Source: an uncultured bacterium (GTDB taxonomy: Bacteria > Verrucomicrobiota > Kiritimatiellia > PWTM01). From it: 40,986 bases of DNA. The notes below the pieces were generated by a model. That model made no database searches and was not told the origin of the DNA. It saw only the letters and a list, made by a program, of their open reading frames with translations. Position 1 is the first letter of the stretch; every line of letters begins with the position of its first letter. The DNA lies in assembly GCA_938005705.1 (NCBI GenBank), contig CALLML010000037.1, forward strand, positions 1 through 40,986, in the 5' to 3' direction. Positions 5,505-40,986 of this stretch are shown here, one piece after another. The position numbers were made by a program, and so were the translations under genes.

Positions 5505-6005
5505 TTGAAGGCCGGACAGAACATCATCCTGATCGGTATGCCGGGCGTGGGCAAGAGCACCGTTGGCGTGCTCCTCGCCAAGGCGGCCCAGCGGCAGTTC
5601 CTCGATACCGATCTGGTCCTGCAGGCCCGCGCTGGTCGCACCTTGCAGGAGGTCATTGACCAGGACGGTCTGGAGGCGTTTCTTCGGCTCGAAGAGCAAT
5701 GCATCCTGTCGCTGGACCTTACCGACCACGTCATCGCCACCGGCGGCAGCGTCATCTACTCCGAACCGGCCATGCGGCATCTCAAAGAAACCGGACTGGT
5801 GATTCATCTCGACCTTCCGATTTTCCTGCTCGAACAGCGCCTCTCGAACCTGGATGTCCGCGGCGTCGTCATGCCGCCGGGATGGACGCTTTCCCGGCTT
5901 GCGCAGCAACGATTGCCGCTGTATCGGCGGTGGGCGGATTTCACGGTGGATGGCGCCGGCAAGACGCAGGACCAAATCGTAGCGGAAATCCTACGCCGCC
6001 TCTAA
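5505..6005 (+). CDS. aroK: Shikimate kinase (TTG start)
   Basis: 166 aa; P-loop GMPGVGKSTVG, LDTDLVLQ, GGSVIYS and lid region RLPLYRRWADFTVDG. Confidence 0.9.
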   Translation: MKAGQNIILIGMPGVGKSTVGVLLAKAAQRQFLDTDLVLQARAGRTLQEVIDQDGLEAFLRLEEQCILSLDLTDHVIATGGSVIYSEPAMRHLKETGLVIHLDLPIFLLEQRLSNLDVRGVVMPPGWTLSRLAQQRLPLYRRWADFTVDGAGKTQDQIVAEILRRL

Positions 6006-6028
6006 AGCCTGTTGGCGCGACGCATATA

Positions 6029-6172
6029 TTCCAAGCCTTGGAAGAAGATCGTCCAAAATTTTCCAAGGATTGGAAAAAACGACCTCAAATTTTCCAAGGC
6101 TTGGAAGAAAACGGCCCCGGTTTTTCCAAGGCTTGGAAAACCTTCCGTGAGATTTTTCCAAGGCTTGGAAAA
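6029..6172. repeat. Array of five near-identical palindromes, consensus TTTTCCAAGGCTTGGAAAA, centre spacing 32, 31, 32, 32 bp
   Basis: Copies at 6029-6043, 6059-6077, 6090-6108, 6122-6140 and 6154-6172, read directly, between the convergent aroK and lpd genes. Confidence 0.93.
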
Positions 6173-6188
6173 CGGCGGGAAGAGCCTA

Positions 6189-7586
6189 CTATTTTTTTCG
6201 TGGCGGGGGCAGATGAATCGCGTTGCCATGCGCCGCATGAGCCGCTTCCATCCAGGCCTCCGCAAAAGTCGGATGCGCGTGGATGGTCCGCCCCAGTTCC
6301 GTCGCGGTCAACTCCGCCCGTACCGCAACGCCCGCCTCCGCAATCAGTTCCGTCGCGTGCGGACCGACCGCCTGGGCGCCGAGCAACTGGTCTGTCTCGG
6401 CGTCCACGATCCATTTGACGAATCCGGTGGTGGCCCCCGCGGCCTTCGCCTTGCCGAGCGCCAGGAACGGAAAACGCCCCACCCGCACGGTCCGCCCCGT
6501 GCGGCGGGCCTCCTCTTCCGTCATTCCCGCCACCGCCACCTCAGGCATGGTGAAAATCACGCCGGGAATAATCGTCTCGTTCGGTTTGGGCTGCCCGCCC
6601 GTGGCATCTTCGGCGGCCACCACGCCCTGCGAGGTGGCCGCGTGCGCCAACATGCATTTGCCATTCACATCGCCGACAGCATAAATGTTCGCCGCGGAGG
6701 TGCGATTGCGCTCATCCGCGCGTATGAATCCACGCTCATCCGTTTCGACGCCGACGCGTTCCAAACCGAGTCCTTCGGTATAGGGCCGACGCCCCACAGC
6801 CGCGAGCAGCACGTCTGCGGTCACCTTCTCACCGCCGACCGTCGCCTCGATCCCTTCCGCCGTCTCGACGGCCGATTCCATCGCGTGGCCGGTCAGAATG
6901 CGGATGTTCAGCTCGCGCTCCATGTGCTTGCGCACCTCCGCGCGGGCGTCGGCGTCGAGCAACATCAGGATGTCTTCGAGCATCTCCACCAGCGTCACTT
7001 CCGCGCCGAGCGAGGCCGCCAGGCAGGCCAGCTCGCAACCGATGTAGCCGCCCCCCATGACCAACAGCCGTCGAGGCAGCTCACGTAACGCCAGAAACGC
7101 CTGGCTTTCCACGACCCGCGAACTTCGAGGAAGGGTTTTCGGGACGATCGAGGCCGACCCCGTGGCAAGAATGATCTTTGCCGTGCGCACACGCACCACG
7201 GCGCCGTCGTCCGGTCGAATCACGATCTGCCGGCGCGACTCCAAAGACGCCCGGCCCTTGAACACGGTCACACCATGGGCCTTGAGCAGCGAAGCCACGC
7301 CCTTTCGCAGCTCGCCGACGACGCGATCCTTGCGCTCCACCATCGCCGCGTAATCGGGCTCGACGGCGCCCACGTGGATACCGAACGTTGCCGCCCGCTT
7401 GATGTGTTCGTACAGATCCGCTCCGGCAATGAGGGCCTTGGTGGGAATGCATCCCCAGTTCAGGCAAGTACCGCCCAACGGCCCGAATTCGACCAGCGCG
7501 GTTTTGGCGCCGCGCCGCGCTGACGTGATCGCCCCCGGATAACCGGCCGGCCCACCGCCCACCACTACCACATCAAACTCGTCCAT
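6189..7586 (-). CDS. lpdA: Dihydrolipoyl dehydrogenase (E3)
   Basis: 465 aa; GGGPAGYPGAI, redox-active GGTCLNWGCIPTKAL, GGGYIGCELA, C-terminal HAHPTFAEAWMEAAH. Confidence 0.95.
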   Translation of the reverse strand: MDEFDVVVVGGGPAGYPGAITSARRGAKTALVEFGPLGGTCLNWGCIPTKALIAGADLYEHIKRAATFGIHVGAVEPDYAAMVERKDRVVGELRKGVASLLKAHGVTVFKGRASLESRRQIVIRPDDGAVVRVRTAKIILATGSASIVPKTLPRSSRVVESQAFLALRELPRRLLVMGGGYIGCELACLAASLGAEVTLVEMLEDILMLLDADARAEVRKHMERELNIRILTGHAMESAVETAEGIEATVGGEKVTADVLLAAVGRRPYTEGLGLERVGVETDERGFIRADERNRTSAANIYAVGDVNGKCMLAHAATSQGVVAAEDATGGQPKPNETIIPGVIFTMPEVAVAGMTEEEARRTGRTVRVGRFPFLALGKAKAAGATTGFVKWIVDAETDQLLGAQAVGPHATELIAEAGVAVRAELTATELGRTIHAHPTFAEAWMEAAHAAHGNAIHLPPPRKK

Positions 7587-36830: not shown

Positions 36831-38120
36831 ATGTCCCCAGAGCAACTTCAGAATGCCCCTTCGAGAACGGTGATTGCGCGCCTGCTCACCGAATGGCTGC
36901 AGTCCGGCGCCTTTCCCGATCGGATGCTCGAATCCGTCACGCGAGACGCCCCCTTCATTCGGGAAGTGACGCTCGGCGTCGTTCGGCGGCTGGGGACATT
37001 GCGATGGCTGCGGCGTCACTTCGCACCACGCGAGCCTGAACCGCCTGTCGCCGCCGCGCTTTATGCGGGCTGGTATGAGCTGCTCTACATGGAAAACCCC
37101 GCGCCACACGCCGTCGTCAACGAGTCGGTCGAGGCGGCGCGGCGACTGGGCGCCGTGCGCGCAGTGGGTTTCATTAATGCCCTCCTGCGACGAGCGGCAC
37201 GAGAAAAAACGGAATGGTTGCGGACCGTCGAACGTCAAGCGCCGCCTGTGCGCCTGTCGCATCCGCCACAGCTATATGATCGGTGGATACGGCAATACGG
37301 ACAGCGCAACGCCCTGCGCCTCTGCCAATGGAACAACGAACGCGCGGAGACGATCATCCGTCCCCGTCCCGGCCGGGCGCCAACCGGCGAGTACCGCGCG
37401 CGGCTTCGCGCCGCGGGAATAGACGCTACGCCACATCCGTTCGATCCCGACCGTTTTCTCGTGTTGCCCCTTGGCGTTTCGCCACCTGATCTGCCCGGAT
37501 TTGCAGATGGCGACGTCTATGTCCAGGACCCGGCCACGGCGGCGGCTGTGGACCTCTTGAATCCGCGCCCTGGCGAGCACGTGCTAGACGCTTGCGCCGC
37601 GCCCGGCGGCAAAACGATCCTCATCGCCGAGCGCCTCGCAGGCCGGGGATGCCTCGTGGCCACGGACCTGCACGAGGATCGTCTGGAACGACTCCGAGAA
37701 AATCTTGCGCGATGCGGACTTCCGGAAACGGCTATTCTGCGCGCCGATGCGTCTGACGCCAACGCCCTTCGCCGCGCCGCCCCGGCCGGCGGATTTGATG
37801 CCGCCTTGCTCGACGCTCCCTGCACCAACACCGGCGTCATCCGACGCCGGCCCGACGTCCGCTGGACCTTCTCGTCGGCCCGACTGACACGGTTGAGGAA
37901 TTTACAGGAGCGCCTCCTCGACGGAGTCTCGCAGGTCATTCGCGCTGGCGGACGAATCGTTTACAGCACCTGCAGTCTCGAGCCCGAAGAAGACGAGGAA
38001 ATGGTCCTCGCCTGGACCGCACGCCACCCCGACTGGAAGGCCTCGCGCGCGCGAAAACTTTTCCCCCCTGACACGCGCACCGACGGCGCGTATGTGGTTC
38101 TTTTGCGACGTGCAGGATGA
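36831..38120 (+). CDS. rsmB: 16S rRNA (cytosine(967)-C(5))-methyltransferase (NusB + Fmu domains)
   Basis: Start at 36831 (MSPEQLQNAPSRTVIARLLTEWL). NusB-like N-terminus; VLDACAAPGGKTILIAERL, LLDAPCTNTGVIRRRPDVRW, GRIVYSTCSLEPEEDEEMV. Confidence 0.95.
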   Translation: MSPEQLQNAPSRTVIARLLTEWLQSGAFPDRMLESVTRDAPFIREVTLGVVRRLGTLRWLRRHFAPREPEPPVAAALYAGWYELLYMENPAPHAVVNESVEAARRLGAVRAVGFINALLRRAAREKTEWLRTVERQAPPVRLSHPPQLYDRWIRQYGQRNALRLCQWNNERAETIIRPRPGRAPTGEYRARLRAAGIDATPHPFDPDRFLVLPLGVSPPDLPGFADGDVYVQDPATAAAVDLLNPRPGEHVLDACAAPGGKTILIAERLAGRGCLVATDLHEDRLERLRENLARCGLPETAILRADASDANALRRAAPAGGFDAALLDAPCTNTGVIRRRPDVRWTFSSARLTRLRNLQERLLDGVSQVIRAGGRIVYSTCSLEPEEDEEMVLAWTARHPDWKASRARKLFPPDTRTDGAYVVLLRRAG

Positions 38121-38323: not shown

Positions 38324-38372
38324 TTTTCCAAGCCTTGGAAAAAAGTGTGATGAAATCTTCCAAGCCTTGGAA
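38324..38372. repeat. Second cluster of the TTCCAAGCCTTGGAA palindrome, two copies, centres 32 bp apart
   Basis: TTTTCCAAGCCTTGGAAAA at 38324-38342 and TTCCAAGCCTTGGAA at 38358-38372; same core and spacing as the 6029-6172 array. Confidence 0.93.
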
Positions 38373-38548: not shown

Positions 38549-39937
38549 ATGATTCATTCGCCTATAAACCTATGCCCCGAAGACCTTCGCGCCGACCTGA
38601 ACCGGATGTGGGATCGCTCCGCCCGATGCATTGAGGCCATCGAGCGCGAGTTCGATCCCGATGCTGGCGCGCCCGTCTTCACCGTGGACGGACGCTACAC
38701 CGCTCGCGGCTGGACGGAGTGGACCCAGGGCTTTCAGTACGGCGCCGCCCTGCTGCAATTCGACGCCACCTCCGAAACGCGTTTTCTCGAGATCGGGCGA
38801 CGCCGCACGATCGAACGCATGGCCCCCCACCTGACGCATTTTGGCGTGCACGACCATGGCTTCAACAATGTCAGTACGTATGGGCACCTCCTCCGACTGG
38901 CGTGGGAACGACGCCTTGACGCTTCCGATTGGGAAATCCGATTCTACGAACTCGCGCTCAAAGTGTCGGGAGCCGTGCAAGCTCGCCGCTGGACCACGCT
39001 GCGGGATGGCATGGGTTACATTTATTCGTTCAATGGCCCCCACTCGCTCTTCGCTGACACCATCCGCTCGCTGCGCGCCCTGGCCGTTTCCCACCTGCTG
39101 GGCCACGTATATTGTGGCGAGAACGATGAACGTGTCTCTTTGCTGGAGCGCCTCATCCGTCATGCCGAGGCGACGGCCCGCTGGTCGGTCTATTATGGCG
39201 AAGGCCGTGACGCCTACGACGTGCGCGGGCGCGTTGCGCATGAAAGTATTTTCAACCTGAATGACGGGCGTTATCGCTGCCCGAATTCACAGCAGGGATA
39301 CTCACCGTTCAGTACCTGGACCCGCGGTCTTGCGTGGGTCATGCTGGGTTTCGCCGAACAACTGGAGTTTCTCACCACACGCCCGGAGGGGGAACTGGAA
39401 TCATTCGGCGGGCGTGCGGCAGTGGAGAGATTCCTGCGACGAGCTGCGGAGGCGACCTGCGATTTCTATATCGAGAACACGCCGACCGACGGCGTGCCCT
39501 ACTGGGACACGGGCGCTCCCAACCTTCACCGGCTGGGCGACTATCTGAACCGGCCGTCTGATCCGTTCAACGATTGGGAACCGGTGGACAGCTCTGCCGC
39601 CGCCATTGCCGCGCAAGCGCTGCTGCGCTTCGGCCATATACTCGGCGAGAACGATGCGGGCCGTCGCTATTGGCAGGCCGGATTGACCACGTTGAGGGCA
39701 CTGCTCAACGAGCCCTATCTGAATCACGACGATCGGCATCAGGGCCTGTTGCTGCACTCTATTTATCACCGACCCAACGGTTGGGATCGCATTCCCCCCG
39801 GCGCGCGCAGTCCGCGCGGCGAATCCAGCATGTGGGGCGACTACCATGTACGCGAGGCGGCCCTGTATGTGCAGCGCCTCATGGACGACCGACCGTACCT
39901 GACCTTCTGGCCGAGTGGAAAACAGGATGAGCGATGA
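38549..39937 (+). CDS. GH88-family unsaturated glucuronyl hydrolase-like protein
   Basis: 462 aa; HDHGFNNVSTYGHLLRLA, SRGLAWVMLG-type segment STWTRGLAWVMLGFAEQLEF, VPYWDTGAPN, DSSAAAIAAQALLRFG, SMWGDYHVREAAL. Confidence 0.9.
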   Translation: MIHSPINLCPEDLRADLNRMWDRSARCIEAIEREFDPDAGAPVFTVDGRYTARGWTEWTQGFQYGAALLQFDATSETRFLEIGRRRTIERMAPHLTHFGVHDHGFNNVSTYGHLLRLAWERRLDASDWEIRFYELALKVSGAVQARRWTTLRDGMGYIYSFNGPHSLFADTIRSLRALAVSHLLGHVYCGENDERVSLLERLIRHAEATARWSVYYGEGRDAYDVRGRVAHESIFNLNDGRYRCPNSQQGYSPFSTWTRGLAWVMLGFAEQLEFLTTRPEGELESFGGRAAVERFLRRAAEATCDFYIENTPTDGVPYWDTGAPNLHRLGDYLNRPSDPFNDWEPVDSSAAAIAAQALLRFGHILGENDAGRRYWQAGLTTLRALLNEPYLNHDDRHQGLLLHSIYHRPNGWDRIPPGARSPRGESSMWGDYHVREAALYVQRLMDDRPYLTFWPSGKQDER

Positions 39938-40986
39938 ACGTCCTGCTCATCACCAGTGACCAACAGCATTGGAGCACGCTAGGCGTGTTGAATCCCGAAA
40001 TCCGCACGCCGGCACTGGACGCGCTGGCGTTGGAGGGATCACTTTTCGAGCGGGCCTATTGTCCCAATCCCACCTGCACTCCGACGCGCGCCTCGATGAT
40101 CACGGGCCTCTACCCCTCCCAGCATGGCGCCTACAGTCTCGGCACCCGGCTGAATGAGAAGGTTCTGGCGGTGGGCGACGTGTTTCGTTCGGCGGGCTGG
40201 CGCACCGCCCTGGTGGGCAAGGCCCATTTCCAGCCGCTGGCAGGAACAAAGGAGTATCCATCCCTGGAGTCGTATCCGATTTTGCAGGACCTCGAGTTCT
40301 GGCGCAACTTCCATGGCCCTTTCTACGGCTTCGAACATGTGGACCTGGCGCGCAATCACACGGACGAACCGCATGTCGGCCAGCACTATGCCATCTGGCT
40401 GGAAGAAAACGGTTGCGCCAACTGGCGCGACTATTTTCGGAAGCCCACCGGTCATGTGAATCGCCACGATTTCCACTGGCCGATTCCGGAGCGCTATCAC
40501 TACAACGCATGGATTGCGGAACGGGTCAATGCCCTTATGACGCAGTACGCCGAGCGAAAAGAACCGTTCTTCCTCTGGGCCAGTTTCTTCGATCCCCATC
40601 CTCAGTGCATGGCGCCGGAACCGTGGGCCACCCTGTACGACCCCGACCGCTTGACATTGCCCCGCGGCCGCCCCGGCGAACATGATCGCAATCCGCCTCA
40701 TTTCCGTTTGACTCAGGAAACAAATCCCGATTTCAGCGCCTACCGTTTCCCGGGTTCGCAAGGGCTACACGGGATGCATTCGCACCTGACCTCCGAGGAA
40801 GATAAACGACGCACGCTCGCCGTCTATTACGGCATGGTGAGTTTGCTGGACAAATATATCGGCATCATTCTCGATCACCTGCGACGCCTCGATCTCGCCG
40901 ATGACACCCTGATCGTATTCACCTCCGACCACGGCCATTTTCTAGGCCAACACGGATTCGTGGCAAAGGGGCCGTTTCATTACGAG
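39934..40986 (+). CDS. Sulfatase (formylglycine-dependent, Cys-type), truncated by the right window edge
   Basis: ATG at 39934 overlaps the GH88 stop (ATGA). MNVLLITSDQQHWSTLG, CTPTRASMITGLYPSQHG matching CxPxR, VGKAHFQP, FTSDHGHFLGQHGFVAKGPF. Frame open to the window end. Confidence 0.95.
   Translation, partial: MNVLLITSDQQHWSTLGVLNPEIRTPALDALALEGSLFERAYCPNPTCTPTRASMITGLYPSQHGAYSLGTRLNEKVLAVGDVFRSAGWRTALVGKAHFQPLAGTKEYPSLESYPILQDLEFWRNFHGPFYGFEHVDLARNHTDEPHVGQHYAIWLEENGCANWRDYFRKPTGHVNRHDFHWPIPERYHYNAWIAERVNALMTQYAERKEPFFLWASFFDPHPQCMAPEPWATLYDPDRLTLPRGRPGEHDRNPPHFRLTQETNPDFSAYRFPGSQGLHGMHSHLTSEEDKRRTLAVYYGMVSLLDKYIGIILDHLRRLDLADDTLIVFTSDHGHFLGQHGFVAKGPFHYE

Follow-up and report, generated by a model that had tools for sequence, protein, structure and literature searches.

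What purpose might be served by a row of evenly spaced palindromes lying between two converging genes? The question arises from a stretch of DNA of 40,986 nucleotides (the window) from an uncultured bacterium of the class Kiritimatiellia. The original prediction described five such palindromes and interpreted them as a helically phased set of sites for a protein that binds cooperatively, with tandem RNA hairpins and a repeat-expansion element as alternatives.

Palindrome arrays in the window

Mapping of the cores confirmed all five of the predicted centers (6036, 6068, 6099, 6131 and 6163), and the steps between them are exactly those claimed: 32, 31, 32 and 32 bp. The sites, to which no strand is assigned, occupy 6029–6043 (TTCCAAGCCTTGGAA), 6061–6075 (TTCCAAGGATTGGAA; step 32), 6092–6106 (TTCCAAGGCTTGGAA; step 31), 6124–6138 (TTCCAAGGCTTGGAA; step 32) and 6156–6170 (TTCCAAGGCTTGGAA; step 32). 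Other details needed adjustment. The second copy departs at one position from the core with S at its center, and the 19-mer TTTTCCAAGGCTTGGAAAA that had been proposed for the set is exact in copies 4 and 5 but not in copies 1–3. The spacers do vary in sequence between copies, as claimed; their length, corrected, is 16–17 nt between the 15-mer cores. A scan of the window also revealed a second array that had escaped the original prediction: two cores 32 bp apart, at 38326–38340 and 38358–38372 (both TTCCAAGCCTTGGAA).

Array 1 is flanked by a shikimate-kinase-family gene (5505–6005, + strand; Pfam SKI), whose stop codon lies 23 bp before the array, and by lpd, encoding dihydrolipoyl dehydrogenase (6189–7586, − strand; TIGR01350 above cut-off), whose stop codon lies 18 bp beyond it. 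The convergent arrangement (stops at 6005 and 6189) and the name lpd stand. The name aroK given to the first gene is not certain, because its best NCBIfam match is the shikimate-kinase-like homoserine kinase NF040667, at 172.6 bits and below the cut-off of 197. Array 2 (38326–38372) sits between an RsmB-like 16S rRNA methyltransferase gene upstream (36870–38120, + strand) and a downstream gene that has no Pfam or NCBIfam match (38549–39937, + strand).

Allowing up to three mismatches, the window holds eight matches, compared to a mean of 0.73 and a maximum of 3 in shuffled windows: the five sites of array 1, the pair of array 2 and one at 40321 (three mismatches, inside a gene). The palindromes of the window are thus not a product of chance. 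Two reading frames, 6012–7088 (+) and 6002–6265 (−), cross array 1 and match no family. They can traverse it since the palindrome is free of stops in every frame (FQGLE, SKAWK, PRLGK), and both are likely spurious. Elsewhere in the window, positions 92–787 resemble a fragment of an ISL3-type transposase, as judged by reading the sequence.

Phasing and site anatomy in the home genome

The original prediction had called for a genome-wide scan and named two observations that would speak against it: spacing not clustered near 31–32 bp, and no excess of the palindrome. The scan returned the opposite on both counts. The assembly to which the window belongs (2.76 Mb) has 208 sites at up to two mismatches, vs. 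4 for the reversed control. When any gap of 2–32 nt between cores was admitted (steps of 17–47 bp), there were 93 neighboring pairs, and 87 of them (94%) had the fixed 17-nt gap that corresponds to exactly 32 bp. We also read 489 kb of this genome directly, in stretches of which 20 had been selected around arrays. This sample contained 36 arrays vs. 5 isolated cores, with 52 steps of 32 bp and three of 31 bp. Of the readings considered, the best supported is thus the predicted one, in which phased sites are filled cooperatively by a protein.

None of the 36 sampled arrays fell in a called gene; all are strictly intergenic. (Genes were called with a simple custom script after the arrays had been masked, and start codons are approximate.) By type of gap, 24 arrays were tandem, 6 convergent and 5 divergent, and one was at a contig edge; the available gaps numbered 115, 36 and 48, respectively, so that the split among arrays roughly follows the background proportion.

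The site consensus is TTCCAANNNTTGGAA, with G or C at its central base almost without exception. The arms TTCC/GGAA are fixed, the fewest changes being tolerated at the CC of the arm; the spacer is conserved weakly at most. As the central triplet, GSC predominates in the home genome and TSA in G404, an uncultured relative with a 6.7-Mb genome. T-rich and A-rich shoulders reach to about 9 bp from the site center, with GC-rich sequence midway along the spacer. The spacers of G404 follow a weak consensus that has a direction, and this direction is independent of the gene strand (33 vs. 29). Copies at the ends of arrays carry more mismatches than those in the middle, although the definition of an array itself biases this comparison.

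Could the arrays be an artefact of chance or low complexity, or a degenerate CRISPR array? The layout of repeats and unique spacers is superficially CRISPR-like, and CRISPR and direct-repeat (iteron) arrays also place their units at a constant step. Those systems, however, occupy one or a few loci and have longer repeats (about 21–40 nt for CRISPR), whereas the repeat here is 15 bp, with 2–7 units at each locus, and a genome has dozens to hundreds of such loci. The original prediction had found no fit to CRISPR or REP geometry. Together with the reversed control above, the controls for pairs, which were zero in nearly all genomes, exclude an artefact of this kind.

Distribution, genomic context and arm types

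The exact pair pattern occurred in 30 of the 388 genomes of a sample of the phylum. All 30 belong to Kiritimatiellia, and none of the approximately 250 sampled genomes of the other classes had it. Within the class, the arrays are spread over many families; at three mismatches, 94 of 288 class genomes matched, with controls again at zero in nearly all. Contigs with three phased copies were titled Kiritimatiellia or Kiritimatiellae, “Lentisphaerae”, “Verrucomicrobia”, “uncultured bacterium” and, once, Bacteroidales. The last is a 5-kb contig (L092) that carries a triple array under a Bacteroidales MAG; it is probably misbinned Kiritimatiellia DNA. Among 2.9 million viral contigs, a single one had a pair (L150, 7669–7715, within a reading frame of 2549 aa).

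The step is constant across these genomes, and the number of sites is not. Fifteen genomes pooled gave 313 steps of 32 bp, 32 of 31 bp, 9 of 33 bp and 4 others. Among relatives, the number of pairs ranges from a few to the 1760 of G404. In 541 kb sampled from G404, we found 148 arrays (one per 3.7 kb) and 7 isolated cores, with steps of 32 bp (149), 33 bp (31) and 31 bp (2). Arrays in general comprise 2–7 sites; in G404, two is the commonest number. Nine of the 148 arrays are inside called frames, and of the intergenic gaps in G404 that exceed 100 bp, about half or more hold an array, whether convergent, tandem or divergent.

Short palindromes that recur over a chromosome and are each read by one protein are familiar from parS, the Noc-binding sites and matS. 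The arrays resemble these in being short, chromosome-wide repeated palindromes, but the known sites are mostly single and biased to the origin or terminus, while those described here come in phased groups. A check for origin or terminus bias was possible in G081, an assembly of one contig: its 45 pairs were uniformly distributed along the contig (KS p 0.84). This even spread in one single-contig genome lends no support to a segregation site centered on origin or terminus.

Neighboring genes gave no common theme. Arrays showed no preference for gene direction (159 on the 5' side vs. 165 on the 3' side). The 78 proteins that have an array on their 5' side fell into 115 Pfam families, none of which appeared more than twice, and no array-adjacent family was common to more than three genomes. 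A conserved locus is seen in family f6, six genomes of which have an array between the rpsI terminator and the start of argJ, overlapping the presumed argJ promoter; its TTCC...GGAA arms and a TTTAAT within the spacer are kept, and a separate terminator with a T-run precedes it. Arrays between argG and lysA are likewise common to f6 genomes. Outside f6, argJ lacks an array in most families, the exceptions being G404 and G065.

Family f6 differs in another respect: about half of its examined sites are inside genes, for example a dinB-like gene identified by reading its sequence. In three f6 genomes of one genus (L276, L286 and L298), the phased pair within this gene is under coding constraint as well. 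Several f6 arrays (L279, L280, L277) adjoin genes that look like ones for amino-acid or nitrogen metabolism: gdhA/gltD, ilvD, argJ and lysA, names that we assigned by reading the proteins. An amino-acid regulon in f6 is a hint only, for genes unrelated to it contain many of the other f6 arrays.

These data bear on whether the palindromes work as RNA, that is, as tandem hairpins that end transcription or stabilize mRNA. Array 1 does lie between convergent stop codons and folds strongly (z −6.5), as any palindrome set must, and 16 of the 24 tandem arrays of the home genome are nearer the upstream stop (p 0.15). The arm sequence is fixed, however, and among 734 sites none of the 19 with two changes carried them as a mirror pair; there is thus no sign of stem compensation. 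Nor did the spacers, considered as RNA loops, display mirror covariation; they tended rather to anti-pairing. Divergent promoter gaps hold arrays just as commonly (27 in the G404 sample), orientation is independent of the gene and the 3' side is not preferred. A terminator scan counted no more than in shuffles, a promoter scan was also without excess, and no family was found in an Rfam scan of the window. At argJ, the T-run terminator is separate from the array, and a 32-bp step would be meaningless for hairpins. We therefore consider this alternative of the original prediction very unlikely.

Do relatives that seem to be free of arrays truly lack them? When a looser pattern (TTCC-N7-GGAA twice at a 32-bp step) was applied to such genomes, G047 yielded 52 pairs, nearly all of them TTCCATNNNATGGAA. 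G265 had a few TTCCATNNNATGGAA pairs, and in G240 there were three pairs of the TTCCA[TC] type. The pairs of family f4 were of TTCCGANNNTCGGAA (33 in G015, 29 in G184 and 23 in G405). Arms of TTCCAT..ATGGAA thus occur in three families, and TTCCGA..TCGGAA in f4. A TTCCAT scan of the class gave 52 pairs in G431, 41 in G047, 4 in G404, 3 in G265, one each in G240 and G436, and zero in the others. Conversely, the TTCCAA scan gave one pair in G047 and none in the f4 genomes G015, G093 and G184. Families f5, f11, f12, f14 and f19 had no matches or isolated ones. In general, then, each genome has one arm type, which changes between lineages while the 32-bp step stays; the rule is not absolute, as G404 has 4 T-type pairs and G431 has 9 A-type pairs (at up to three mismatches) beside its 52 T-type pairs. 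We take this lineage-wide switch at constant step to be the strongest evidence for a trans-acting protein that reads the sequence.

Arm switching can also be viewed as replacement by a new repeat family. On that account, the arrays are selfish or mobile intergenic repeats of the REP/BIME or MITE kind, copied and functionless, and the arm types are successive families of them. In most genomes the arrays are indeed intergenic and clustered, with hundreds of copies, and copy number differs strongly between relatives. Spacers in G431 are near-identical within and between arrays, suggesting recent expansion there by copying of a 32-bp unit, and G404 has a clear excess of spacer similarity with some identical pairs. 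In the home genome and G047 the excess is mild, and no two spacers are near-identical: in the former, 26 spacer pairs matched at 12/17 or better, compared to 5.7 expected, but the best pair (13/17) is within the null range, and the spacers bear no mark of recent copying. In the f4 genomes G015 and G184, spacer similarity is no higher than in column shuffles.

Copying alone does not explain why arms are kept while spacers are not. That the arms outlive common spacers in some genomes argues for selection on the arms. Numbers of the RAYT transposase family (PF01797) are unrelated to the arrays: 10 in G265, which has few arrays, 3 in G404 with its 1760 pairs, and 0 in G007. Although REP/BIME elements are also intergenic palindromes in many clustered copies, the arrays differ from them in their symmetric 15-bp site, their fixed 32-bp step, their mostly unrelated spacers and the missing link to RAYT. 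The argJ locus is kept in six f6 genomes, and a phage origin is disfavored by the near-absence of pairs from viral contigs. The repeat-expansion alternative thus survives in part: near-identical spacers show that some of the increase came by copying in at least two genomes, G404 and G431. As an account of the whole, we regard functionless repeats as unlikely.

A proposed binding protein

The arm sequence, the step, the genome-wide excess, the intergenic placement in the home genome and the lineage-wide switching of arms at constant step are the observations from which we infer that a protein binds the arrays. We think it probable that the palindromes are homodimer sites, that neighbors 32 bp apart lie on the same face of the DNA and are filled cooperatively, and that the protein is a global organizer of the nucleoid type as well as a regulator. 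A sequence-specific DNA-binding protein would occupy each palindrome as a homodimer. Since 32 bp make about three helical turns, adjacent dimers would stand on the same face and in contact, giving rise to cooperative binding; two sites would be the working minimum, and the bound dimers may bend or wrap the DNA. The protein would presumably co-evolve with its sites. Given the hundreds of arrays that occur between genes of any orientation, a genome-wide intergenic lattice and a global organizer and regulator are the most likely role, and an array over a promoter, as at argJ in f6, would act as an operator.

Some findings run counter to a binding protein. The number of sites varies enormously between relatives, as would seldom be expected of a nucleoid protein that is essential; spacers have been copied in G404 and G431; f6 has intragenic sites; arm types can be mixed; and the best prior candidate, discussed below, does not follow arm type.

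A bolder form of the binding-protein reading, which we put forward tentatively and hold to be possible rather than probable, is a sequence-directed bacterial chromatin. Here, phased particles of several dimers would form on the intergenic arrays, and the specificity of the protein would have shifted several times, the arms being rewritten and the 32-bp lattice kept. If true, such chromatin would extend to as many as 1760 site pairs in one 6.7-Mb genome. The switch of arms at constant step would be a natural record of a regulator evolving together with its whole set of sites, an open question in regulatory evolution; the arrays pose the question of how dozens to hundreds of sites come to be rewritten in one genome. 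The motif strings occur in no paper of the open-access literature that was searched, and topic searches there returned nothing relevant. A genome-wide protein–DNA lattice in this large, mostly uncultured class is apparently undescribed.

Could the binder be a class-wide protein of the Lrp/AsnC family, acting as a feast/famine global regulator? The Ss-LrpB sites have a 15-bp palindromic consensus (PMC4046817). Clusters of Lrp-family sites lie on one DNA face with center spacings of two or three helical turns, and binding is by cooperative dimers with DNA wrapping (PMC2995911). The same geometry was found here, with 15-bp sites at a 32-bp step, so that the array architecture matches Lrp-family operators (PMC2995911, PMC4046817), down to the unconstrained center of the palindrome; cooperative dimers are a feature of Lrp that we suppose for the arrays. 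Some f6 arrays, moreover, are at argJ, lysA, gdhA/gltD and ilvD. The likeness ends with number and quality: Lrp has few, degenerate operators, whereas hundreds of near-perfect sites per genome occupy all intergenic contexts here.

Only one Lrp is common in the class, and its gene neighbors one for an aminotransferase. This candidate was at first suggestive and then failed. The protein is also present in array-free genomes, such as those of f5 and f12; its recognition helix differs greatly from genome to genome even where the arms are all TTCCAA; and many f6 arrays are inside unrelated genes. The A-type genomes all lacked a helix signature, VRRR, that three T-type genomes had, and VRRR was therefore predicted for G431, the strongest T-type genome. 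We found VAGR in G431 and VAAR in G436; the helix does not track A or T arm type. Following the failure of this prediction, we do not class the arrays as sites of Lrp, though the architecture is alike, and we judge the class-wide Lrp to be a quite improbable binder. Some array-bearing genomes of the class, among them L242, L244 and L247, have a second, short Lrp-like protein that apparently consists of the RAM domain only; its open frames of about 90–140 aa seem to leave no room for a helix-turn-helix.
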